Assembly: GCA_023957475.1 (NCBI GenBank)
Contig: JAMLHA010000001.1
Coordinates: 62,001 to 126,000 of the forward strand
From: Crocinitomicaceae bacterium
GTDB taxonomy: Bacteria; Bacteroidota; Bacteroidia; Flavobacteriales_D; Crocinitomicaceae
DNA: 64,000 nucleotides
Reading direction: 5' to 3'
Shown: in pieces, positions 3,119-58,675 of the stretch
Position numbering within the stretch: position 1 is the stretch's first letter
Layout: each line of letters begins with the position of its first letter
Position numbers and translations under genes: made by a program
Notes under the pieces: model-generated
What the model was told of the DNA's origin: nothing
What the model saw: the letters and a program-made list of their open reading frames with translations, nothing else
Databases searched by the model: none

Positions 3119-4939
3119 ATGTCTGCAATTGTACATGAAGCACACGGTCATACTGAACACGCACACCACGAGGAAAATTTCGTGTCAAAGTATATTTTTA
3201 GTCAAGACCATAAGATGATTTCTAAGCAGTATTTGATTACTGCTGTATTTATGGGAACTGTCGGTATGTTACTTTCAGTATTTTTCCGTATTCAATTGGC
3301 TTGGCCTGGTGAACCTAGTGATTTTATTCACTTTTTCTTAGGAGATAGATGGGCGCCAGAGGGAATTCTTAGAGAAGATATGTTCTTGGGATTGGTAACT
3401 ATCCACGGAACAATCATGGTATTCTTCCTGCTTACAGGTGGTTTGTCTGGTACATTTTCTAACTTGTTAATTCCATACCAAATTGGAGCACGTGATATGG
3501 CTTCTGGATTTATGAACATGATTTCATACTGGTTGTTCTTCCTTTCAAGCATTATCATGTTAGCTTCTTTATTTGTAGAAAGTGGACCAGCGATGGGTGG
3601 TTGGACGGTCTATCCGCCATTGTCTGCCCTTCCGCAATTTATTTCAGGTTCTGGACTTGGAATGGATTTGTGGTTGACATCTATGACGTTGTTTATTGCA
3701 TCTTCTTTAATGGGATCTTTAAATTATATCTCTACAGTATTGAACTTGAGAACAAAAGGAATGAATATGAATAGATTACCATTGACAGTGTGGACATTCT
3801 TCATTACTGCAATTGTTGGTTTGTTAACTTTCCCAGTTCTTTTGTCAGCTGCCTTGTTATTAGTAATGGATAGATCTTTAGGAACTTCTTTCTATTTATC
3901 TGATGTAATTGCTGGTTCTGATATGATGACAAATCATGGTGGTTCTCCTATCTTGTTTGAACACTTGTTCTGGTTCTTAGGTCACCCTGAGGTTTACTTA
4001 GTATTGATGCCATCTTTAGGAATTACTTCTGAAATTATTGCTACAAACACAAGAAAACCAATCTTTGGTTACAAAGCCATGGTTGGTTCTACTTTGGCAA
4101 TTGGTTTCTTATCTTGTGTCGTTTGGGCTCACCACATGTTTGTAACAGGTATGAATCCATTCCTTGGATCGGTATTCGTGTTTACCACTTTACTTATTGC
4201 CATACCTTCTGCCGTAAAAGTATTTAACTATTTGACTACGTTGTGGAAAGGTACTATTATCTATACTCCAGGATTGATGTTCTCAATTGGATTGGTTTCT
4301 TCATTCATCACTGGTGGTATTACAGGTATTATTTTGGCTGACTCTTCATTGGATATTACTGTGCATGACACAATGTTCGTTGTTGCCCACTTCCACGTGG
4401 TAATGGGATTATCAGCGGTGTTTGGTATGTACGCTGGTATCTACCACTGGTTCCCTAAATTCTTTGGTAAATTGATGAATGTAAGATTGGGGTATATCCA
4501 CTTCTGGATTACTTTAGTATGTGCTTATGGAGTATTTATCCCAATGCACTTCATGGGGATTTCTGGTGCACCTCGTCGTTATTACGATTATTCAGTGTAC
4601 GAAGTGTTTGACCATGAAACATTCTTGAAAATTGAAAACTTGAACCTAATTATCTCTTTGTTTGCTATCATCGGATCTTTAGGACAGTTGGTATTTATTT
4701 TCAACTTCTTCTATAGTATCTTCAAAGGACAAAAAGCACCTCAAAACCCTTGGAAATCTACAACATTGGAGTGGACTACTCCAGTAGAACATATCCATGG
4801 TAACTGGCCAGGTGAATTGCCTGAAGTACATCGTTGGCCGTATGACTTGTCTAAACCAGGATGGGATGTGGATTATGTAATGCAAACAGAACCACTTCGC
4901 GAAGGTGAATTAGTTGATGGCGGAATTAACGAACATTGA
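3119..4939 (+). CDS. coxA: Cytochrome c oxidase subunit I (heme a / heme a3-CuB)
   Basis: A 606-residue catalytic subunit. All metal ligands are visible: His96 (HGTIMVFF) and His426 for the low-spin heme, His289, His338 and His339 for CuB (GHPEVY and AHH), and His424 for the high-spin heme (HDTMFVVAHFH). Tyr293 of the H-x-E-V-Y motif is present, as expected for A-type oxidases with a Tyr-His cross-link. The N-terminus is His-rich (HEAHGHTEHAHHEE), a feature of unknown role. The gene starts 27 nt after subunit II and is followed by a strong terminator, so subunits III and IV are not encoded next to it in this window. Confidence 0.97.
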   Translation: MSAIVHEAHGHTEHAHHEENFVSKYIFSQDHKMISKQYLITAVFMGTVGMLLSVFFRIQLAWPGEPSDFIHFFLGDRWAPEGILREDMFLGLVTIHGTIMVFFLLTGGLSGTFSNLLIPYQIGARDMASGFMNMISYWLFFLSSIIMLASLFVESGPAMGGWTVYPPLSALPQFISGSGLGMDLWLTSMTLFIASSLMGSLNYISTVLNLRTKGMNMNRLPLTVWTFFITAIVGLLTFPVLLSAALLLVMDRSLGTSFYLSDVIAGSDMMTNHGGSPILFEHLFWFLGHPEVYLVLMPSLGITSEIIATNTRKPIFGYKAMVGSTLAIGFLSCVVWAHHMFVTGMNPFLGSVFVFTTLLIAIPSAVKVFNYLTTLWKGTIIYTPGLMFSIGLVSSFITGGITGIILADSSLDITVHDTMFVVAHFHVVMGLSAVFGMYAGIYHWFPKFFGKLMNVRLGYIHFWITLVCAYGVFIPMHFMGISGAPRRYYDYSVYEVFDHETFLKIENLNLIISLFAIIGSLGQLVFIFNFFYSIFKGQKAPQNPWKSTTLEWTTPVEHIHGNWPGELPEVHRWPYDLSKPGWDVDYVMQTEPLREGELVDGGINEH

Positions 4940-4964
4940 TCAATATAAGTTTTCATTAAGAAAA

Positions 4965-4988
4965 AATGCTCCGAATTTTCGGAGCATT
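4965..4988 (+). terminator. Rho-independent terminator of the oxidase operon
   Basis: A 10-bp perfect stem (AATGCTCCGA / TCGGAGCATT) with a 4-nt loop is followed by a T-run. It lies 25 nt after the subunit I stop codon and closes the act-cox operon. Confidence 0.9.
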
Positions 4989-5008
4989 TTTTTGTTTTAT
5001 TAAATCAA

Positions 5009-5065
5009 TCAAATCATCAAGTCATCAAGTCATATAGTCATATAATCATCAAATCAACCAATCAA
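5009..5065. repeat. Degenerate ATCAAGTCATC-type intergenic repeat
   Basis: A run of short near-repeats (ATCAAATCATC, AAGTCATCAAGTCAT, ATAGTCATATAATCATC, AATCAACCAATC) fills the space between the oxidase terminator and the next gene. Similar words recur at about 9560-9595, 15905-16024 and 31922-31966, always between genes. No coding potential is seen. Confidence 0.6.
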
Positions 5066-5086
5066 AAAAAATGTTATTTTTACTTC

Positions 5087-5593
5087 ATGAATCATTCCCA
5101 CTTCAATGAAACAAATGCTCAGGCATTTCAAAAACGTATGCTCAATCCGATTCTTTTCCGATTGATGCTCTATAAAATGTTGCCCTTAGCAGCTTTAACA
5201 GGGGTTAAATTAAACACGTTAGACAGAGATTCAGTTCAATTGAGTGTAAAGTATAAGTTTTTGAATAAAAACCCGTTTAAAACGACTTATTGGGCTGTTT
5301 TAGGAATGTGTGCTGAAATGGCGAGTGGATTGTTGTTGTTAATGTACACATACAAACTAAATCCTTCTGTTTCTACCTACGTGCTTTCATCTGATGCAAA
5401 ATTCATTAAGCGGGCTTTAGGAAAAACTACTTTTGTATGTAAACAAGGAGCGGAAATTGAACAAATTATCATTGAGGCTATTGAATCAAAAGAACCAAAG
5501 GAAATAAGTTGCCAAACATTGGCTTATAATGAACAAAATGAACTTATTGCTGAGTTTAATTTTGTTTGGGGAGTAAAAGTTAGAACAAAGTAA
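5087..5593 (+). CDS. DUF4442 hotdog-fold protein (thioesterase-like)
   Basis: A 168-residue protein resembling the DUF4442 family, which has a hotdog fold related to acyl-CoA/acyl-ACP thioesterases such as YiiD. The pattern LNPILFRLMLYKMLPLAALTG, then NPFKTTYWAVLGMCAEMASG, is the recognisable part: the second stretch corresponds to the hotdog helix, with the polar residues Cys-Ala-Glu-Met-Ala-Ser-Gly. It has no signal peptide and is probably cytoplasmic. It stands alone between a terminator and a lipoprotein gene. The substrate is unknown; the family call is from sequence impression only. Confidence 0.65.
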   Translation: MNHSHFNETNAQAFQKRMLNPILFRLMLYKMLPLAALTGVKLNTLDRDSVQLSVKYKFLNKNPFKTTYWAVLGMCAEMASGLLLLMYTYKLNPSVSTYVLSSDAKFIKRALGKTTFVCKQGAEIEQIIIEAIESKEPKEISCQTLAYNEQNELIAEFNFVWGVKVRTK

Positions 5594-5653
5594 TTGCACT
5601 ATTTTTCTTGATTTCAGGTTATTTGATTAATTTTAAAGTCTAATTTAGATACT

Positions 5654-6538
5654 ATGAAACTAAAATTTGCTTTTTTAATAGCTCTTGTAGCATTTTCAAC
5701 TTCTTGTAAAAAAGAAAAAAATCAAAATACGAAGAATCAAACTGGGCCACAGTTGGTGTTTAAAATAAAACTGAACCCAACGCAAGAGCGATTAGATGTA
5801 TTTGGAAACCCTGAAACATTACCTGCTGGTCATGGTGCTCAAGTTCCAGATTACAATGAATTTAGAATCCACTCCATAGAATTGGTGCCTAATGAATACA
5901 CGCCTTTTGGACAAGGATACATTGTTTACAATGCAGAAATGCTTAACGATGGTAGTAAAGCTGTTATTTTTGACAAATTGAAACCGTTGCAAGATGGTTC
6001 AATTGCTTTTACTGTGCAGTTAGATGAAGTTATACCAGGAACGTATAAATACATTCGTGTATCTGCTGCATATCAAAACTACAACATTAATTTTAGAGCC
6101 AATGGTTTTGATTTAGTTGGTACAATTGCTTCGTTTGTAGCACACAATAGCTATATTTCAAGTTATAAAATTAAGAATCAAACGGTTTCGTTGAGTGCGC
6201 AAAAAATGCAAGGTTATTTTGGTTTTGAAGTTCCTGCAATACCTCCATACTACACAGGAGAAGTTATTCAAGGTCAAACAGCTGGAACCACTGTTCCAAA
6301 CCCAATCAATGCTACATCACCAATCCCTGTTGGAAGTTGTACGGTTACTGGAATTTTCCCTGCACCATTTACACTTGCTGGAGATGAAAAAAAGGATGTG
6401 GTTATCAATCTTTCTTTTAGTATCAACAATAGTTTTGAATGGAGCGATGCAAATGGAAACAATATTTTTGAACCATTGGATGGAGATACTGTTGTGGATA
6501 TGGGCTTAAGAGGATTGATTCCTTATGTAGTTGAATAG
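5654..6538 (+). CDS. Predicted lipoprotein of unknown function
   Basis: A 294-residue protein with a type II signal peptide: a Lys-containing N-terminus, a hydrophobic core and a lipobox ending in S-T-S-C with the lipidated Cys at residue 18, followed by a charged KKEKNQN linker. The rest is rich in beta-strand-like segments (for example FRIHSIELVPNEYTPFG and KYIRVSAAYQNYNINF) and includes the phrase DANGNNIFEPLDGD near the end. It resembles the many Bacteroidota surface or periplasmic lipoproteins with a single beta-sandwich domain. I do not recognise the family. It appears monocistronic. Confidence 0.7.
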   Translation: MKLKFAFLIALVAFSTSCKKEKNQNTKNQTGPQLVFKIKLNPTQERLDVFGNPETLPAGHGAQVPDYNEFRIHSIELVPNEYTPFGQGYIVYNAEMLNDGSKAVIFDKLKPLQDGSIAFTVQLDEVIPGTYKYIRVSAAYQNYNINFRANGFDLVGTIASFVAHNSYISSYKIKNQTVSLSAQKMQGYFGFEVPAIPPYYTGEVIQGQTAGTTVPNPINATSPIPVGSCTVTGIFPAPFTLAGDEKKDVVINLSFSINNSFEWSDANGNNIFEPLDGDTVVDMGLRGLIPYVVE

Positions 6539-6910
6539 AAATGTATGATTGATTTTCAATGAATTTCATCATACCACTTCCAAAATTTATAGAATAGATT
6601 GTTTGTATAAAATAAACTCTATTGTTAGATTGAGTCTATTTGTTAATTTACTTCATAATACATGGGTATTACGAGGTAAATCGCCTAAAAATCAAAACTA
6701 AAATTCACAACCTGAATGGGGTTTTATATCGAATTCAGGATATTTTAATACTTTCCTTTGTGTTCCTTGTGCCTCTGTGGTTATTTAAACTTCTCCAGAG
6801 TGGTTAGTATATGTTGAATAGACCAACCGTTTAAAAAATTAATACGTTTGTATTGTTGGCGCACAAATTAATGCAGCTATTTTTATATCTTTGTAAAAGA
6901 TAAAGTAAAA
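6539..6910. other. Intergenic region with inverted repeat, dispersed repeat and ruvB promoter
   Basis: This 372-nt gap holds a CCTGAAT/ATTCAGG inverted repeat (6711-6717 and 6733-6739) and one copy of the dispersed 'tgtgtccttcgtgcctctgtggt' family (6757-6785, diverged). A Bacteroidota -7 box TATCTTTG at 6886-6893 lies just ahead of the ruvB start at 6911. No open reading frame looks real here. Confidence 0.6.
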
Positions 6911-7930
6911 GTGGAAGATTCATTTGACTATAGAGATGAGGCTGAAAAGCAAGACGTGGACTATGATAAAGTCTTGCGACCAAAGCACCTTTCTGATTTT
7001 ACAGGTCAGCCGAAAGTAGTGGACAACCTATCTGTTTTCGTAAAAGCAGCAAAATTGCGCAATGAACCACTTGATCACGTCTTATTGCATGGACCTCCAG
7101 GATTGGGAAAAACAACTTTGTCCAATATCATTGCCAATGAACTAAATGTTGGTTTTAAAGTTACTTCTGGCCCTGTTTTGGATAAACCCGGAGATTTAGC
7201 AGGTTTACTCACTAACTTAGAAACTGGAGATGTGCTGTTTATTGACGAAATTCATCGTTTGAGTCCCGTTATTGAAGAGTATTTGTATTCTGCAATGGAA
7301 GATTATCACATCGATATCATGATTGATACTGGGCCAAATGCAAGAACAGTTCAGTTGGCTTTGAATCCGTTTACATTGATTGGAGCCACAACACGTTCGG
7401 GGTTGTTGACTTCTCCATTGCGTGCTCGATTTGGTATCAATTTGAGATTGGAATATTACGATGCAAAGACACTAACCATGATTGTTGAACGTTCTGCTGG
7501 ATTGTTGGGAATTCCAATTACAGAAGAAGCGGCATATCAAATTGCAAGTAGAAGTAGAGGCACACCTCGTATTGCCAATGCGTTGTTGCGCCGTGTTCGT
7601 GATTTTGCACAAATCAAAGGCGACGGAACTATTGAAAATGAAATCAGTAAATATGCACTGGATGCATTGAATGTGGATCAATGTGGGTTGGATGAAATGG
7701 ACAACAAGATATTGCATACCATAATCGATAAATTTAAAGGTGGACCAGTTGGTTTAACAACTATTGCTACGGCAATTGGTGAAAATGCAGGAACTTTGGA
7801 GGAAGTGTACGAACCATTTTTAATCCAAGAGGGCTTTTTAATGCGTACACCAAGAGGACGACAAGCAACCGAAAGAGCATTTAAACACTTAGGAAAGGAT
7901 CAAGGCTGGACGCAAGGTGGTTTGTTTTAA
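6911..7930 (+). CDS. ruvB: Holliday junction branch migration ATPase RuvB
   Basis: A 339-residue AAA+ motor that drives branch migration of Holliday junctions together with RuvA. Walker A GPPGLGKT is at residues 61-68 and Walker B VLFIDEIH at 108-115. The sensor and arginine-finger segment [18 protein letters not shown] and the C-terminal winged helix ([17 protein letters not shown]) are also present. Length and N-terminus ([12 protein letters not shown]) match the family. The start is a GTG at 6911; no in-frame ATG lies near it, and a TATCTTTG promoter box ends 17 nt upstream. queG begins 6 nt after its stop, suggesting a two-gene operon. Confidence 0.97.
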
Positions 7931-9330: not shown

Positions 9331-9645
9331 GAATTTACACATACAACACTTCATATAACCCTCTGTGTCCTTCGTGCCTCTGTGGTGATTTCGATTACGC
9401 TCAACCACTAGACTCATTTTGTCAATCAGCCAACAATTCAAATTAATTTTCTCTGTGTCTCTATGGTTTTTAGATAAAGCACATCTTTTTAACTCAACGC
9501 TAGCAACTAATCACTATTATCAGCTTTGCCAAAGGCAATCTAACACTTTACTAATATCATAATGTCAACTAGTCATAACATCAACTAGTCATCCAAAAAC
9601 AAAAAAGGTCGAGCTTGCACCCGACCTTGATGATAATTTTTAAAG
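9331..9645. other. Intergenic repeat-rich region between apaG and frr
   Basis: A 315-nt convergent gap. It contains two copies of the 'ctctgtgtccttcgtgcctctgtggt' repeat family (9361-9388 full, 9451-9471 short), a TTGCCAAAGGCAAT-type palindromic word near 9524-9538, AACTAGTCAT near-repeats (9567-9595) and the frr terminator at 9605-9628. No gene is seen. Confidence 0.6.
9605..9628 (-). terminator. Rho-independent terminator of frr
   Basis: On the minus strand AAGGTCG, a 10-nt loop, then CGACCTT is followed by a T-rich run. The element is almost identical, loop included, to the terminator at 58698-58721 on the plus strand. Confidence 0.82.
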
Positions 9646-51365: not shown

Positions 51366-52115
51366 ATGAATGTGTTAATTGTAGATGATGCTGAACAAGC
51401 TCGGAAATTATTAAGGCTCACTTTAGCTGAGATTGCTCCAGATATTTCTAATATAAAAGAAGCAGAGGACGTAGATGATGCAATTGTTCTAATAAAAAAG
51501 AATACTTTTGATATTGTTTTTCTTGATATTGAAATGCCCGGTAAAAGTGGCTTGCAATTGGTTGAAGAGTTGAAAGATACAATTGATTTTGAAATTATTT
51601 TTATCACAGCTTACAGTCAATATGCCATCGATGCATTCAAACTTTCGGCTGTGGATTATCTCTTAAAACCATTCCGAGAAAGTGAGTTAGAGGCAGCTGT
51701 TAATAAGGCAAAAGAAAGCATTAAATTGAAGAAAAATGCCACTTTCTATGAATCATTAATAACCAATATTCAATACAATACGGATAAGATAATAACCATG
51801 CCGATTAATTACGGTTATGAATACATAAAATTGGCTGATATTCAGTATATTGAAGCGGATGGGGCTTATTCAACTATTCATCTTAAAGAAGGAGATTCTA
51901 TGCTAGTTTCTCGTAATTTGAAGTATTTTGAAAAATTATTATGTGATAGAACAAATTTCTGTAAAATCAATCGTTCAATTATCGTTTGTCTGAATTGCGT
52001 AAAATCCTACCTCAAAAAAGACCGTGGAGTAATTACATTGTGTTGCGGGAAAGAGGTGAAACTCTCCGCCAATCACGTGGATACGTTTGTAGAAAAAATG
52101 GAGAAAATGGAGTAA
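51366..52115 (+). CDS. LytTR response regulator
   Basis: A 249-residue regulator. The receiver domain has the acidic pair DD (residues 7-8), phospho-Asp54 (IVFLDIEMPGKSG) and Lys of DYLLKPF. The C-terminal LytTR DNA-binding domain has YEYIKLADIQYIEADGAYSTIHL, RNLKYFEKLL and FCKINRSIIV. It should be phosphorylated by the adjacent kinase. Targets are unknown; the BtrH-ketosynthase locus just upstream and the modules just downstream are candidates only by position. Confidence 0.94.
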   Translation: MNVLIVDDAEQARKLLRLTLAEIAPDISNIKEAEDVDDAIVLIKKNTFDIVFLDIEMPGKSGLQLVEELKDTIDFEIIFITAYSQYAIDAFKLSAVDYLLKPFRESELEAAVNKAKESIKLKKNATFYESLITNIQYNTDKIITMPINYGYEYIKLADIQYIEADGAYSTIHLKEGDSMLVSRNLKYFEKLLCDRTNFCKINRSIIVCLNCVKSYLKKDRGVITLCCGKEVKLSANHVDTFVEKMEKME

Positions 52116-52241: not shown

Positions 52242-52297
52242 ATTTTTTTCATAAGTTCAAATGAAAACCATTTGGAAACGGGTGGTTTTTTGTGGAT
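52242..52297 (+). repeat. Module-boundary repeat, copy A
   Basis: Contains ATTTTTTTCATAAGTT (52242-52257), shared with the left flank of the IS element at 53625-53640, then the hairpin of 52266-52287 and TTTTTTGTGGAT, shared with copy C. It precedes the first DUF4143 ATPase module. Confidence 0.7.
52266..52287 (+). terminator. GAAA-loop hairpin, copy A
   Basis: AACCATTTG-GAAA-CGGGTGGTT forms a 9-bp stem with three T.G wobbles and a GNRA tetraloop, followed by a T-run. The wobbles replace C-G pairs of the other copies, so the RNA fold is conserved while the sequence changes. Confidence 0.78.
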
Positions 52298-52350
52298 ATA
52301 GGAAATAAATCATTTCTAAAGAAAAATTGAAATTGAAAATAAATAATTAT

Positions 52351-52392
52351 TTTTATACAAATCATCCAATCAATTCCTATATTTGTATAAAA
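52351..52392 (+). promoter_or_regulatory. 12-bp inverted repeat with 18-nt spacer at the ATPase 1 promoter
   Basis: TTTTATACAAAT (52351-52362) and ATTTGTATAAAA (52381-52392) are perfect reverse complements separated by 18 nt. The right arm overlaps the -7 box TATATTTG (52378-52385). The same geometry with other arm sequences occurs before ATPase 2 (55597-55638). Confidence 0.75.
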
Positions 52393-52400
52393 TAACATTC

Positions 52401-53552
52401 ATGATATCTAGAGAATTAAATACCGTTTTAAGAGAATATGCTAAGGAATTTCGTTCGGTATTGGTGGTTGGTCCACGCCAATCAGGTAAAACCACCTTGA
52501 CCAGAGAAACCTTCCCAGACAAACCTTATGTTTCATTGGAGAATCCTGATGAAAAACTATTGGCGGAAAATGATGCTCGTGCATTTTTAAGCCGATTTCC
52601 AAATGGTGCTATTCTCGATGAAATTCAGCGTGTTCCTAATTTGTTCAGTTATTTACAAGAGATTTTAGATACAACTAACGAAGACGGATTATTCATTCTA
52701 ACCGGAAGTAATAATATTTTATTACAGGAAAATATAAGTCAAACGCTAGCCGGACGGCTAGGTATCTTAGATTTATATCCGTTAAGTTATCGAGAGATTA
52801 AAGAGGAATCCAAGGATTATTCTTTGAATGAGCTTATTTTTAAAGGTTCCTATCCAGAGATTTATCACAAAAATCGAAAGCCGCAGATTTGGTATTCCTC
52901 TTACGTCAGAACGTATGTAGAAAGAGATGTTCGACAAATAAAGAATATTGATAACACCTCCTTATTTATTAAGTTTTTGAAAATTTGTGCAGGACGTATC
53001 GGTCAACAAGTCAATTTATCTAATATGAGTAACGCTTGTGGCATTGATGTCAAAACTGTGCAATCTTGGCTATCGGTACTTGAGCAATCCTACATTATTA
53101 AATTAGTTCAACCATTTTATAACAACTTTAATAAGCGTATCGTAAAAGCACCAAAACTCTATTTTATTGATACAGGATTGGCTTGTTCTTTACTTACCAT
53201 TCGAAATATGGATGAATTGGCTTTATCTCATTTTTATGGTGCTTTGGTAGAAAACTATGTCATAATAGAATGCATGAAAAACAATGCTAATTTACAAACT
53301 GATAGGGCTTTTTACTATTGGCGGGATAACAACGGAGTTGAGATAGACTTAATAATTGATAAAGGTTCGGACTTTATGCCTGTTGAGATAAAATCTGCTC
53401 AAACTTTTTCTAATGATTTCTCAAATAATCTTCTTAAACTCAAAAACTATGCGAATATTCAACAGGGTATCGTCGTGTATAATGGAACAATGGAGTTCAC
53501 TAACAGCAATAATATAGAAGTTGTGAACTGGAAATCATTTTTGGAAAAGTAA
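52401..53552 (+). CDS. AAA ATPase with DUF4143 domain (module 1)
   Basis: A 383-residue protein of the AAA_14/DUF4143 family. Walker A GPRQSGKT is at residues 24-31 and Walker B AILDEIQ near 70-76. The DUF4143 part (YVRTYVERDVRQI ... PKLYFIDTGLACSLL) includes a PD-(D/E)xK-like strand pair (EIDLIIDKG ... MPVEIKSAQ, about 325-345). The role of the family is unknown; proposals include toxin-antitoxin-like or defence roles. I start at ATG 52401; a TTG at 52383 belongs to the -7 box TATATTTG. It is followed by a remnant T9SS tail and the IS element. Confidence 0.9.
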   Translation: MISRELNTVLREYAKEFRSVLVVGPRQSGKTTLTRETFPDKPYVSLENPDEKLLAENDARAFLSRFPNGAILDEIQRVPNLFSYLQEILDTTNEDGLFILTGSNNILLQENISQTLAGRLGILDLYPLSYREIKEESKDYSLNELIFKGSYPEIYHKNRKPQIWYSSYVRTYVERDVRQIKNIDNTSLFIKFLKICAGRIGQQVNLSNMSNACGIDVKTVQSWLSVLEQSYIIKLVQPFYNNFNKRIVKAPKLYFIDTGLACSLLTIRNMDELALSHFYGALVENYVIIECMKNNANLQTDRAFYYWRDNNGVEIDLIIDKGSDFMPVEIKSAQTFSNDFSNNLLKLKNYANIQQGIVVYNGTMEFTNSNNIEVVNWKSFLEK

Positions 53553-53584
53553 TTCCATCCTATACGCATTATCAACTCATTCAA

Positions 53585-53637
53585 ACTTCCAACGGTGGAA
53601 TGAGATAAGTTCATAAAAGAGTAAATTTTTTTCATAA
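53585..53637 (+). repeat. Remnant of a T9SS gene 3' end
   Basis: ACTTCCAACGG, then a diverged stretch with one extra base, then GTTCATAAAAGAGTAA and ATTTTTTTCATA match the 3' end of the T9SS propeller gene at 58637-58688. The extra base breaks the frame. It is therefore a fragment of a gene tail left after ATPase 1. Confidence 0.75.
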
Positions 53638-53640
53638 GTT

Positions 53641-54560
53641 AATTCAAGTTGCTAGTTAGTTTGTCATTTTATTAAGTTGCAAGCCGAAAATAAAAAGGGT
53701 TAATTTTATCAAAAAGCCATTTATTGTTACTGCGTGTATTGTTCTGGAAAACAATTTCTTAATGTCACTTATTGCAACTTCTATTCGTTTTCTCATTTTT
53801 AGTTTTTCGATAGTTTGTAGATTAGTATCAGGTCGTTTACTGTTGGATTTTCGTTGCGTTTTAATCCGTATCCCATAGTTTTTTAACGCATTATCTTCTT
53901 GTGCGTAGTCAGTGTAAGCACTATCGGCATACAAGGTGGATTCAGGGGATAATTTCGTAAGTATTTTTTGCAATGCTTTCACATCTCCAACCTTACCAGG
54001 TGTGAAATGAAATGCGAAAGGAATACCCGATTTGGTTGTAACCAATTGAACTTTAACGCCATAAAAATAGGTGTGCATACTTGCCGTGTAGCCACGCCAT
54101 TGTTTGCCTTTCACTATTTTACTGCGTCCTATGCGAATATTTTGACAAACAGCGACGGGAAAAGAATCAATAATATACTGTAATTCACAACAAATATCCT
54201 TGAAATAACTGCTGATGATTTCAAAGAGTTCATATAAAAGTCCACCGATTTTATGTAAACGCCTATTAAAGCGACTTTTATCTAACATATTGGGAATAAA
54301 TCCATACTGTTTCACAAATTTAATAGCGGAATTGTGATTGCCGTAAAAACTTGTTGCTGAAATAATGGAAGTTAAAATAATTTCACTGTCACTCACTTGA
54401 CGGCGAACATCTTCCTTGTGATTTATTCCTTTCAAAATATCGTCTATCAAACAAAAAATTCCTGTAATTTTGTCTTTGCAAAGCATCGGTAATGTTTTTA
54501 TGTTTCTCAAAATCAAAATTACAAAACGGATGCTTTGCTTTTAAACTAGCAACTTGAATT
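53641..54560 (-). mobile_element. IS982-family insertion sequence
   Basis: A 920-bp element with perfect 17-bp terminal inverted repeats (AATTCAAGTTGCTAGTT at 53641-53657 and its complement at 54544-54560) and one transposase gene. A 5-bp target duplication AAGTT lies at 53636-53640 and 54561-54565. Removing the element and one AAGTT joins CATAAGTT to AAAAGGAAAACCACTC, which matches copy A of the boundary repeat, so the empty site can be reconstructed. The element looks intact and recent. Confidence 0.92.
53656..54516 (-). CDS. IS982-family transposase
   Basis: A 286-residue DDE transposase. The catalytic residues are visible: first Asp in IIDSFPVAVCQNIR, second Asp in LYADSAYTDYAQED, and Glu in MRKRIEVAISDIKKLF. 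Other family marks are GYTASMHTYFYGVKVQLVTTKSGIPFAFHFTPG and the C-terminal IHAVTINGFLIKLTLFIFGLQLN. Length is typical, with no stop or frameshift, so it should be active. Confidence 0.95.
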   Translation of the reverse strand: MILRNIKTLPMLCKDKITGIFCLIDDILKGINHKEDVRRQVSDSEIILTSIISATSFYGNHNSAIKFVKQYGFIPNMLDKSRFNRRLHKIGGLLYELFEIISSYFKDICCELQYIIDSFPVAVCQNIRIGRSKIVKGKQWRGYTASMHTYFYGVKVQLVTTKSGIPFAFHFTPGKVGDVKALQKILTKLSPESTLYADSAYTDYAQEDNALKNYGIRIKTQRKSNSKRPDTNLQTIEKLKMRKRIEVAISDIKKLFSRTIHAVTINGFLIKLTLFIFGLQLNKMTN

Positions 54561-54573
54561 AAGTTAAAAGGAA

Positions 54574-54595
54574 AACCACTCAGAAACGGGTGGTT
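54574..54595 (+). terminator. GAAA-loop hairpin, copy B
   Basis: AACCACTCA-GAAA-CGGGTGGTT followed by TTTTT. The stem is 8 bp with one A.C mismatch next to the loop. The IS element lies just upstream, within the same boundary repeat. Confidence 0.78.
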
Positions 54596-54656
54596 TTTTT
54601 GTATTTTTTCTGTTTATTATTAGTTTTTTTCCGTATATTAGTAGAAACAATAAAAG

Positions 54657-55501
54657 ATGAAAGAAGAAAACTCCATTCGAATATTTGATGAAAAGCAAGT
54701 CCGAACACATTGGAATGAAGAAGAGGAAAAGTGGTATTTTTCCGTGATTGATGTGGTTGCTATTTTGACGGGGAGTAGTGTCCCTAAACGATATTGGTCT
54801 GATTTAAAAAAGAAGTTAACAAATGAAGGAAGTCAGTTGTACGAAGAAATCGTACAACTGAAATTTAAAGCATCAGATAATAAAAAATATGCAACTGATT
54901 GTTTGAATACACAAGGATTATTGCGACTCATCCAATCCATACCATCTCCCAAAGCAGAACCATTTAAGCAATGGCTAGCAAAAGTTGGCTACGAACGTAT
55001 GCAAGAAATTTCGGATCCAGAACAAAGTTTGGATAGAGCAAGAGAAAATTGGAAACAACTTGGACGCAGTGAAAAATGGATACAACAACGAATGTCGGGA
55101 CAAGAGACTAGAAATAAACTCACCGACTACTGGAAAGAAAATGGTGTTGAGAAATCAGATGAATTTGCTTTTTTGACAAACATTATTCATCGAGAATGGA
55201 CTGGTTTAACTGTGAAAAGACACAAAGATTTAAAAAGTTTGAAAACACAGAATCTACGTGATCACATGAGTGAAGCAGAACTGATTTTCACAGCATTAGC
55301 TGAACTCTCCACCAGACAAATTGCTGAAGCAGAAGAAGCAACAGGTATTCAACAAAACGCAATCGCTGGTAAAAATGTGGTAAAATAGCCAAAGATGCAA
55401 GACTTGCGTTAGAACAAAAAACAGGACAGAAGGTTGTGACACAAGAAAACTTTTTACCTCCTTCAGTGGAAAAGAAAAAGTTAAACAAAAAAAATAGGTG
55501 A
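54657..55501 (+). pseudogene. Bro-N / DinD-like gene with 3' frameshift (module 2)
   Basis: The first 243 codons encode a Bro-N domain protein like DNA-damage-inducible protein D (IRIFDEKQVRTHWNEEEEKWYFSVIDVVAILT, RYWSDLKKKL, LNTQGLLRLIQSIPSPKAEPFKQWLAKVGYERM). The frame ends at 55388, but the usual C-terminus of the family (GKIAKDARLALEQKTGQKVVTQENFLPP) continues in another frame from 55379 to a TGA at 55499. Two extra bases in AAAAATGTGGTAAAA near 55376 explain this; without them the protein would be 280 residues. It is probably a pseudogene, though the truncated protein keeps its Bro-N domain. Confidence 0.8.
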
Positions 55502-55503
55502 AC

Positions 55504-55521
55504 CCACTCGGAAACGGGTGG
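55504..55521 (+). terminator. GAAA-loop hairpin, copy C
   Basis: CCACTCG-GAAA-CGGGTGG, a 7-bp stem followed by TTTTTTGTGGAT. It begins right after the stop of the complete DinD frame (55499-55501). Confidence 0.78.
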
Positions 55522-55596
55522 TTTTTTGTGGATTCACAATTTCAAACAAAATTATCTTCCTCCACATTTACTCAAAATCAGATAGTTAATCATTTG

Positions 55597-55638
55597 AAAT
55601 TCCTAAAAGTTTACATTCTTATGAAGTTTTAGGAATTT
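55597..55638 (+). promoter_or_regulatory. 12-bp inverted repeat with 18-nt spacer at the ATPase 2 promoter
   Basis: AAATTCCTAAAA (55597-55608) and TTTTAGGAATTT (55627-55638) are perfect reverse complements with an 18-nt spacer. The -7 box TATATTTG follows at 55643-55650. Arm length and spacer equal those at 52351-52392, while the arm sequences differ. Confidence 0.75.
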
Positions 55639-55655
55639 TGGGTATATTTGTTTTT

Positions 55656-56867
55656 ATGAAAGCGATATTACGTACACAGTACTTAGACACTTTGCGATTT
55701 TTAAAAGACAAAAATCTAATTAAAGTTGCAACTGGAGTAAGACGTTGTGGGAAGTCAACATTAATGACTCAATTTCAGGACTTATTGCGACAGGAAAATG
55801 AAGACGTTTCTATTTTATCCATCAATATGGATATGCCTGAATTTCGATTCCTAGCAGAAAAGAGCTGGAAAGAGATTTACGATTACATCATCCATCAAAT
55901 AAAAAAGAATACCACTAATTATGTTTTTATTGATGAAGTACAAAATGTTCTTGAATTTGAGAAGTTACTGGAAGGATTGTATGTTCATCCCAATATCGAC
56001 CTATATGTGACCGGGTCGAACGCTTTTCTCTTATCGAGTGAATTAGCTACTTTACTTACAGGAAGAGCTTATGAAATTAATGTCTTGCCTTTTTCATTTT
56101 CTGAATATTTGGAGTTTACAGAAAAAGTGGGGAACCCAGATCGTGCATTCGCCGATTATATACGTACTGGCGGATTCCCTGAGGCAGTACGGTTGTCTTC
56201 AGAAGGCAATCATTTTGCCAATGAATATCTTCAAACAGTATATAAAAACATTTTTACCAACGATATTTCAAAACGTCATACAATTTATGGTGAAGAATCC
56301 TTCCAAGAAGTGGTAGATTTCTTAGTCGATTCAATTGGTTCGAGAGTTTCTGCCGGCAACATCGCTAAAATATTAACTGCAAACAAAAAGAAGATTGACA
56401 ACAAAACCGTTTCAAAATATATCGACACATTAGTTGAATCCTATCTGTTTTACAAAGTAAACCGTTTTGATGTTAAAGGGAAACAGCATCTAGCAACACT
56501 AGAAAAGTACTACCTTGTGGACTTGGGATTACGGACTGCATTATTGGGTAAAGAATTATCAACGGACACAGGGCATTTACTCGAAAACATTATATTTCTA
56601 GAATTAAGGCGTAGGAAAAACCAGGTATGGGTTGGGAAAGTGAATAACTTGGAAGTTGACTTCATTATTCGTGATAATGAAGGTTTTACAAAGTACATTC
56701 AAGTTGCACAAACCGTACAGAATACAAAAACATTAGAACGTGAATTAGCTCCATTTAAAAGCATCTCAGATCATCATGAGAAACTATTGATTACAATGGA
56801 TTATGATTCAGGAACATATAATGGTATTAAGAAAATTAATGCTATCGATTGGCTCACTCAAAATTAA
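55656..56867 (+). CDS. AAA ATPase with DUF4143 domain (module 3)
   Basis: A 403-residue paralogue-like member of the AAA_14/DUF4143 family, only distantly similar to ATPase 1. Walker A GVRRCGKST is at residues 27-35 and Walker B VFIDEVQN near 90-97 (Asp93, Glu94). The DUF4143 part has YYLVDLGLRTALLG, LLENIIFLELRRR and EVDFIIRD. I start at ATG 55656 (MKAILRTQY); the TTG at 55638 lies upstream of the -7 box TATATTTG (55643-55650). The reading frame is intact. Copy D of the hairpin follows 66 nt after the stop. Confidence 0.9.
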   Translation: MKAILRTQYLDTLRFLKDKNLIKVATGVRRCGKSTLMTQFQDLLRQENEDVSILSINMDMPEFRFLAEKSWKEIYDYIIHQIKKNTTNYVFIDEVQNVLEFEKLLEGLYVHPNIDLYVTGSNAFLLSSELATLLTGRAYEINVLPFSFSEYLEFTEKVGNPDRAFADYIRTGGFPEAVRLSSEGNHFANEYLQTVYKNIFTNDISKRHTIYGEESFQEVVDFLVDSIGSRVSAGNIAKILTANKKKIDNKTVSKYIDTLVESYLFYKVNRFDVKGKQHLATLEKYYLVDLGLRTALLGKELSTDTGHLLENIIFLELRRRKNQVWVGKVNNLEVDFIIRDNEGFTKYIQVAQTVQNTKTLERELAPFKSISDHHEKLLITMDYDSGTYNGIKKINAIDWLTQN

Positions 56868-56932
56868 AATTACATCGATGTAACAGATTTGAAACACTAT
56901 CATTTTCCTTCAAGAGGAAAAAGTTACTGAAA

Positions 56933-56954
56933 AACCACTCGGAAACGGGTGGTT
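56933..56954 (+). terminator. GAAA-loop hairpin, copy D
   Basis: AACCACTCG-GAAA-CGGGTGGTT, the cleanest copy with a 9-bp stem (one T.G wobble) and GNRA loop, followed by TTGTTTT. Confidence 0.8.
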
Positions 56955-57100
56955 TTGTTTTAAAATAAACTCTCAAAAATTAGTAAAAAACACCTCTTTT
57001 TTACAGTTCGTAAACTCAACTGTATAGTTCGTAAAGAAACTCCTTGAAAATCGAAAAAAAATTTGGAGGTTTGAAACATAAATTTTAAAAACAAAATACT

Positions 57101-58675
57101 ATGAAAAAAATTTTATTTTCAGCATTTTTTGCCTTAACGAGTTTAGTGGCAAATGCACAAAATGTGTGGCAAAATGTAGGCTCGGCAGGATTTTCAGAAG
57201 GTCAAGCAAATTACACTTCTCTTGCATTTAACCCCACAAGCGGAGAGCCTTATGTGGCTTATAAAGATGTAGCCAATTCAAACAAAGCTACGGTAATGAA
57301 GTTTGACGGAACGGCTTGGGACACTGTTGGTATATCAGGTTTTTCTACACACGAAATAATGCATGTTTCACTTGCTTTTACTCCTTCGGGCGTTCCTTAT
57401 GTGGTGTATCTAAGTGGAGGATCTTCTAAAGCGTGGGTAGTAGTAATGAAGTTTGATGGTACGGATTGGGTAACTGTCGGAAGTTCGGTGGGGCAATCAC
57501 CAGCGACAGCCGTTACTGCTTCAATTGCATTTAACGCTTCGGGAGAGCCATACGTGGCTTATAGTGATTTTCTAAATGGTAATAAAGCTGTGGTTCAGAA
57601 ATTTGACGGCACAAATTGGGTAACTGTCGGTCAGGCAGATTTCTCTTTAGGCGGAGTAGCTTACCCTACGCTTGCTTTCAACTCTTCTGGTGTACCTTAT
57701 ATTGCCTATGCAGACCAGCAAGTATCTAACAAAACTACGGTGCATAAATTTAATGGTACGATATGGGAACAAGTAGGATCGGTAGCTTTTTCCGCAGGAC
57801 AAGCAGATTTTGTTTCGCTTGCTTTCAACTCATCTGATGTACCTCACGTTGCTTATCGAGATGGAGTAGATAAGGCTACCGTTATGAAATTTGACGGTAC
57901 GGCTTGGGGAAATGTAGGTACAGCAGGATTTTCAGCAGGGCGAGCAGACCATACATCTTTGGCTTTTAACGCCGCTGGTGAGCCTTATGTAGCATATCGT
58001 GATTTTGGAAATTCAAGTAAAGCAACTGTTATGAAATATAACGGTACGGCTTGGGTAAACGTAGGTTCGGCAGGTTTCTCCACAGGATTAGCAGGACATA
58101 CATCACTTGTATTCAATCCTTCAACAGATGAGCCTTATGTAGCGTTTAGTGACGGAGGTAGTTCATACGCAGCAACGGTAATGAAATTTGCGGAACAAAT
58201 GACATATACTATCACAACCACTGCTAACCCAAGTACAGGCGGAACAGTAGCAGGTGCAGGTCTGCACAATGACGGAACAACCGTGACATTAACAGCGACA
58301 GCAAACGCAGGCTATCAATTTGCAAAATGGACTGAAAATGGAACGGAAGTTTCTACTGACAATCCATATACATTTTCAGCAACTTCGGATAGAACTATTG
58401 TAGCAGAATTTGAGCTTACAGCTGGAATCAATGAGTTGAATGATGATTTTTTTGGCGTATTTCCTAATCCAACTTCTAATATTCTAAACGTAGAAACGAA
58501 GTTAAACACCACAATCCAAATCGTCAACGTTCTAGGTGCAACAATCGCCACACAAGAATTAACCGAAGGTACCAACACCATTGATGTAAGTAACTTTACA
58601 AAAGGCATGTATTTCATTCTTCCGATAGCTATCGGGACTTCCAACGGAGGTAGGGTGAAGTTCATAAAAGAGTAA
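57101..58675 (+). CDS. T9SS type-A cargo with seven-repeat beta-propeller
   Basis: A 524-residue secreted protein. A signal peptide (MKKILFSAFFALTSLVANAQ) is followed by seven repeats of 46-50 residues (about 20-365) of the form WxxVGxxGFSxGxAxxxSLAFNxxGEPYVAYxD...KATVMKFDGTx. Seven such units predict a seven-bladed beta-propeller. Next is one bacterial-repeat domain (TITTTANPSTGGTVAGAGLHNDG ... FAKWTENGTEV, about 367-440) and a type-A sorting domain (FPNPTSNILNVE ... GATIATQELTEG ... KGMYFI). The last 20 residues are abnormal: a palindromic element (58622-58635) is inserted in frame between MYFI and the terminal VKFIKE. Confidence 0.9.
   Translation: MKKILFSAFFALTSLVANAQNVWQNVGSAGFSEGQANYTSLAFNPTSGEPYVAYKDVANSNKATVMKFDGTAWDTVGISGFSTHEIMHVSLAFTPSGVPYVVYLSGGSSKAWVVVMKFDGTDWVTVGSSVGQSPATAVTASIAFNASGEPYVAYSDFLNGNKAVVQKFDGTNWVTVGQADFSLGGVAYPTLAFNSSGVPYIAYADQQVSNKTTVHKFNGTIWEQVGSVAFSAGQADFVSLAFNSSDVPHVAYRDGVDKATVMKFDGTAWGNVGTAGFSAGRADHTSLAFNAAGEPYVAYRDFGNSSKATVMKYNGTAWVNVGSAGFSTGLAGHTSLVFNPSTDEPYVAFSDGGSSYAATVMKFAEQMTYTITTTANPSTGGTVAGAGLHNDGTTVTLTATANAGYQFAKWTENGTEVSTDNPYTFSATSDRTIVAEFELTAGINELNDDFFGVFPNPTSNILNVETKLNTTIQIVNVLGATIATQELTEGTNTIDVSNFTKGMYFILPIAIGTSNGGRVKFIKE
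58622..58635. repeat. CCGATAGCTATCGG palindrome inside the T9SS gene
   Basis: A perfect 14-bp palindrome read in frame as part of LPIAIG near the C-terminus of the sorting domain. Such GATAGCTATC palindromes occur between genes in Bacteroidota; here one lies in coding sequence. Confidence 0.7.

Follow-up and report, generated by a model that had tools for sequence, protein, structure and literature searches.

A row of single candidate defence genes bounded by a locus-specific hairpin repeat in a Crocinitomicaceae genome

Introduction

It is an open question by what route stand-alone defence genes reach the chromosome when no integrase or transposase carries them. Within the window (the whole 64,000-nt stretch of Crocinitomicaceae DNA that was analysed), a 22-nt hairpin occurs in four same-strand (+) copies, A to D, which bound three single genes. 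The PADLOC models PDC-S01 and PDC-S13 fit all three genes of this row; these models describe genes, not their route of entry or the surrounding repeats. The open literature searched gave nothing on the subject for DUF4143, COG1373 or long target duplications, and a single paper names DUF4143, in passing.

Results

Four hairpin copies and their flanks

The features of the row are the following, in order of position.

51366..52115, +, LytTR response regulator gene (Pfam Response_reg and LytTR)
52242..52297, +, repeat copy A: left flank ATTTTTTTCATAAGTT, hairpin 52266-52287, then TTTTTTGTGGAT
52401..53552, +, unit 1 gene, AAA_14/DUF4143 ATPase of PDC-S01 type (Pfam, PADLOC; ORF from 52383, ATG at 52401)
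53625..53640, +, left part of repeat copy B, severed by the IS; 16 nt identical to copy A
53641..54563, -, IS982-family insertion in the left flank of copy B (transposase 53656-54516; NCBIfam IS982 1.1e-54)
54560..54603, +, repeat copy B: hairpin 54574-54595
54657..55388, +, unit 2 gene, Bro-N/DinD-like, PDC-S13, frameshifted (Pfam, PADLOC, frame check)
55500..55533, +, repeat copy C: hairpin 55502-55523, then TTTTTTGTGGAT as in copy A
55656..56867, +, unit 3 gene, second, divergent AAA_14/DUF4143 ATPase of PDC-S01 type (Pfam, PADLOC; ORF from 55638, ATG at 55656)
56919..56962, +, repeat copy D, end of the row: hairpin 56933-56954

All four copies that the initial annotation had recognised are present on the + strand, and the chance expectation for such matches was 0 (100 shuffles). 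The starts given there for copies A, B and D (52266, 54574 and 56933) are exact, and copy C starts at 55502, 2 nt before the position assigned to it. The unit lengths of about 1.38 kb (IS set aside), 0.93 kb and 1.43 kb are likewise correct. The loop and 3′ arm (GAAACGGGTGGTTTT) are invariant in all four copies, and variation is confined to the 5′ arm. Copy A keeps its stem through G.T pairs, as had been claimed; the closing pair is lost in copy B, and one outer pair is missing in copy C. Folding energies of copies A, B, C and D were -12.3, -15.2, -11.9 and -16.0 kcal/mol, with z values of -2.7, -4.0, -1.6 and -4.1, respectively. Copy C is a weak hairpin by virtue of these values. Every copy lies 3′ of a same-strand gene and is accompanied by a T-run.

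The flanking likeness proposed earlier was also recovered. Copies A and B have the 16-nt ATTTTTTTCATAAGTT in common on their left side (at 52242 and 53625), with a likeness of about 50 nt once IS982 is set aside, and TTTTTTGTGGAT is the sequence that follows both A and C. Direct repeats are found at both borders of all three units in the window.

Genes of the row

The gene identities first read from the DNA were borne out by Pfam and PADLOC. Unit 1 matches DUF4143 (4e-50) and AAA_14 (5e-28) in Pfam and PDC-S01 in PADLOC (1.6e-102, nearly full length); it has a Walker A motif, the conserved E..D core and an EIK motif, the latter read from the sequence. Unit 3 matches AAA_14 (4.8e-32), DUF4143 (9.4e-20) and PDC-S01 (1.4e-141, nearly full length) and has QVA where unit 1 has EIK. 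The best PDC-S01 model differs between units 1 and 3; therefore, they do not stem from a recent duplication. Unit 2 matches Bro-N (2.7e-13) and PDC-S13 (6.5e-111 over 239 of 286 positions), its C-terminus being lost by a frameshift near the gene end; this C-terminus continues in another frame to a stop at about 55496-55498, 3 nt before copy C. By family assignment, all three are candidate phage-defence genes. Sequence searches for solved-structure relatives of units 1 and 2 returned none.

The stop of the LytTR gene lies 151 nt before the start of copy A, and the original terminator, copy A, probably belonged to this gene. The IS982 element has the ends AATTCAAGTTGCTAG and a 5-bp duplication AAGTT (about 53636-53640 and 54559-54563), as read from the sequence. 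It is a later arrival and not part of the row, and it carries the sole transposase found there. Directly after the row, at 57101-58675, a type IX secretion (Por_Secre_tail) protein is encoded, with repeated blocks about 150 nt apart.

The hairpin is confined to this locus

With up to 2 mismatches, the own genome (3.14 Mb) contains the four clustered copies only, and one more relative at 3 mismatches lies on another contig. Among 119 genomes searched, four have a match, the own genome included (1 match each in 3 of the 118 others); two congeners gave no match. An exact search with a degenerate pattern broad enough for all four copies gave 6 single hits in about 85,000 species, each a lone copy beside unrelated genes, with no PDC gene among these neighbours. 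Viral contigs held no exact match to the hairpin, and a viral origin was set aside as a candidate.

A 1.38-Mb portion of the own genome has 195 terminator-like hairpins, which form 18,915 pairs; only 20 of these pairs are at least 86% alike. Six of these 20 are the six within-row pairs, and the members of any other similar pair lie at least about 20 kb apart. The initial annotation had reasoned that a hairpin found after hundreds of housekeeping genes would be just a common terminator. Since the hairpin is rare in its own genome, in relatives and in about 85,000 species, and since alike pairs concentrate in the row, this is not what the genome contains. A common terminator or REP family is ruled out by the few, clustered genome copies and by their rarity elsewhere, and the evidence supports a locus-specific repeat.

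Another hairpin behaves differently in the same window: near-identical copies of AAAGGTCGRGY..CGACCTTT at 9605 and 58697 lie 49 kb apart in opposite orientation and, with a third relative at C1:328824, form a small dispersed hairpin family.

Likeness to a cassette array

The row had been likened to a gene-cassette array. Of this likeness, the analysis supports autonomous single-gene units of defence type in a row, with a locus-specific repeat at their borders; an integron-like system is not supported. The integron core motifs RYYYAAC and GTTRRRY are absent from the repeat ends, where the repeat reads AAAAACC...GGTTTTTT. The adjacent tyrosine recombinase that had been envisaged is not there either, the nearest PF00589 gene of the own genome being at C1:186262, about 67 kb from the row.

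An empty counterpart of the window site was sought in two congeners. The HK/RR part of the locus was not found in either, and RmuC and rplM are located elsewhere in them; therefore, these congeners offer no empty window site.

Direct repeats flank genes of the same two families

For both families represented in the row, genes were collected from the own genome and its relatives together with the surrounding DNA, and the two flanks of each were compared. At a score of at least 40, direct repeats flank 13 of 51 DUF4143 and 5 of 16 PDC-S13 genes, i.e., 18/67 versus 7/587 other genes (Fisher p 4e-14; controls not mobility-matched). With six doubtful cases removed, 12/67 remain repeat-flanked (p 1.5e-8 against other genes). 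A survey of the own genome that covered 44% of it, on contigs chosen partly for DUF4143 content, gave 4/12 against 2/919 other genes (p 2e-7). These counts show that genes of both families are strongly enriched between direct repeats. About three quarters of the DUF4143 genes have no flanking repeat, and a likely reason would be that old scars have decayed.

The repeats are heterogeneous: some are target ends, and others are palindromes that seemingly travel with the unit. Often the repeat is the end of a neighbour gene, such as the start of polA (L144), the 3′ end of an HhH-GPD glycosylase gene (L087) or that of an Eco57I-type (type IIG) RM gene (L061); the L057 and L105 repeats are also ends of other neighbour genes. 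Unrelated phenomena occur in the set as well, namely a minisatellite (L136), dispersed repeats (L143 and L163), a tandem-paralogue region (L060/L067) and a candidate integron-like row (L168). For the Bro-N sites of L060/L067, an interpretation as clean target duplications is weakened by the tandem paralogues and by the occupied state of the site in three congeners. For PDC-S13 genes the search for an empty site gave none: the L060 site is occupied in those three congeners, and L057 lacks a match in congeners. At L087, congeners are without the unit beside the HhH-GPD gene; the comparison is half a test, because the left flank is not conserved there.

An insertion before polA and a swap between repeats

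One case lies in a related genus, in which a DUF4143 (PDC-S01) gene stands before polA and a 98-bp duplication flanks the unit (L144). The same place is empty in four congeners. When the filled and empty sites are aligned, the right homology sets in where the second repeat starts, and the left homology ends just before the first. The left repeat leads from the native flank into the start of polA and stops sharply at about codon 20, and the right repeat leads into an intact polA. The repeats and the empty sites together demonstrate that a single-gene unit was inserted and that 98 bp of target were duplicated. Thus, single-gene insertion with target duplication is proven for a PDC-S01 gene of a related genus, not for the window. 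For the window itself we infer insertion, since no examined relative has the window locus.

Exchange of single genes between repeats, as the initial annotation had suspected, is seen at another locus with another repeat. At L155 of one genome (G003), a DUF4143 gene lies between two palindromic repeats of about 42 nt, before a conserved 231-aa gene, and a congener (G065) has the DUF4143 unit at the corresponding place. In G025, the same repeat pair encloses a gene for YhcG (DUF1016), a PD-(D/E)XK nuclease, instead, and in G053 a VOC-type gene. The palindrome-bounded DUF4143 unit is present elsewhere in G025 and G053, with homology spanning exactly from palindrome to palindrome, and it also occurs at an unrelated site in G015.

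Discussion

The present study suggests that the row probably grew by repeated additive insertion of single-gene defence-type units at one terminator, each insertion copying the terminator, and that the repeats then allow exchange or loss. Units would have joined in succession at the terminator that follows the LytTR response-regulator gene, and each addition would have duplicated a stretch of target, of which about 25-50 bp are still recognisable. Three such insertions, each duplicating the target, would leave four copies of one hairpin. Each copy may end transcription of the preceding gene, and in this proposal each unit would therefore stay insulated. The insertion step would need no recombinase encoded at the locus. 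Most likely, incoming DNA would be captured at a staggered break that is then filled in, or would recombine on one side only (homology-facilitated). The former route would directly yield long, variable duplications; the latter would fit additions with a donor-shared anchor, not the first arrival at a new site. The resulting direct repeats would permit RecA-type exchange or loss of a unit.

Alternatively, the repeat could be a substrate instead of a by-product, if units arrived with their own hairpin copy and entered or left by homologous recombination with the resident hairpin. We regard this as unlikely, although congeners do carry different single genes between one repeat pair, and a DUF4143 unit with palindromes at both ends is found at different sites (L155, L169, L224 and L225). 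Our searches placed the window hairpin beside such genes nowhere else, so cassettes would need another copy of the same locus as their source. Furthermore, 22-50 bp is short for RecA, and the polA repeat is clearly target sequence. It is quite improbable that DUF4143 proteins move themselves, with the AAA-ATPase and a PD-(D/E)XK-like nuclease cutting the target with a long stagger and inserting their own gene, and with Bro-N genes taking the same route. The Walker A motif and E..D core are nearly invariant in 49 homologues, unit 1 keeps EIK, relatives have the single-gene units in several copies at unrelated sites, and the YhcG in the L155 slot is likewise a PD-(D/E)XK nuclease. However, unit ends are not constant across the family, unit 3 has QVA in place of EIK, and Bro-N and VOC-type genes occur in the same setting without a recognised nuclease.

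The position of each copy after a same-strand gene, with its T-run, is what ordinary terminators would also produce, if they were alike by chance and kept so by selection for a good GNRA-loop hairpin. We give this very little credence: the other terminator-like hairpins of the genome are not alike at close range, the likeness of A and B runs to about 50 nt including flank beyond the hairpin, and the hairpin is absent from congeners. An integron-like or CALIN array with attC sites would have same-strand single genes with a structured repeat ending each, and a relative has a candidate of such kind (L168). For the row, this reading has next to no chance; it is contradicted on its defining features (attC core and recombinase), as the repeat is too short, a simple hairpin without the RYYYAAC/GTTRRRY core, found nowhere else and with no tyrosine recombinase within 67 kb.

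Returning to additive insertion, a wider and doubtful extension treats each AAA_14/DUF4143 gene as a minimal mobile element of one gene, or else as the cargo that some insertion pathway of Bacteroidota-type genomes prefers. Such genes might insert with long, variable target duplications, and a duplicated terminator might become a landing pad for stacking and swapping defence genes. Self-mobilisation is conceivable because DUF4143 proteins keep an AAA and nuclease-like core.

CRISPR arrays grow through Cas1-Cas2, each addition duplicating the resident repeat, so that n units are accompanied by n+1 repeats. The row has the same n and n+1 relation, but its units are genes of 0.9-1.4 kb and it has no Cas1-Cas2. 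Insertion sequences, e.g., the IS982 inside the row, resemble the proposed units in that insertion copies target sequence. In contrast, an IS leaves a short duplication of constant length (5 bp here), whereas the unit repeats vary, at about 25-225 bp, and the units carry no transposase. Integron cassettes (attC) and CALINs share with the row same-strand single-gene units with a hairpin repeat after each; unlike them, the row is without attC core or integrase, and its repeat is confined to one locus. For orphan immunity-gene arrays in Vibrio T6SS clusters, growth via homology-facilitated illegitimate recombination has been proposed (PMC5361080). As in the row, single protective genes are added singly there beside a resident gene end, with no integrase shown; the Vibrio modules differ in that they displace an effector at a conserved anchor, whereas the additions described here are complete defence-type genes that stand alone, and the duplicated sequence is a terminator or the end of a gene, at many unrelated sites.

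Thus, the row and its relatives point to a little-described, integrase-free way of stacking bacterial defence genes. The long direct repeats can be read as scars that betray an insertion, lead to the empty sites and indicate in advance which units are open to loss or exchange. The question of entry becomes testable in genera that already have congeners with empty and filled sites.

Other repeat-bounded loci in the own genome and relatives

Several further loci deserve mention in their own right. At L160 (G003:C1, 6253-7949), small units next to a DUF4143 gene are set apart by three identical terminators of 33-39 nt (ATCCTGCGACCGATTGGCGCAGGATT), which makes this a second row resembling that of the window. 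At L061 (G015:C19, 9435-10927), a truncated and then an intact PDC-S13 gene follow the Eco57I-type RM gene, whose 3′ end is duplicated after both; possibly, these are two insertions at one site. In the own genome, at L137 (G000:C12:205401-225300, 4331-7219), 74-nt repeats bound an ATPase_2/DUF234 gene together with a Fic-like/HATPase gene, and one repeat copy falls within an upstream open reading frame.

Tandem iteron-like motifs mark L142 (G015:C4, 17886-19649) and L111: AAAAGTCGTTCCGAAAACGTGCAA stands on both sides of a DUF4143 gene, and a DUF4143 gene from another family of the order has the similar motif AAAAAGTCGTACGAAAAAATGT at its flanks. Finally, L168 (G015:C27, 1-8500) has same-strand single genes with a repeat of about 60 nt (AACATTTATCCGAGTAGTCGACAAAAGCTTTAA) after each, namely a DUF4143 gene, an erythromycin-esterase-like gene, a Gp49/HTH toxin-antitoxin-like pair and one unknown gene; it may be an integron-type (CALIN) array.
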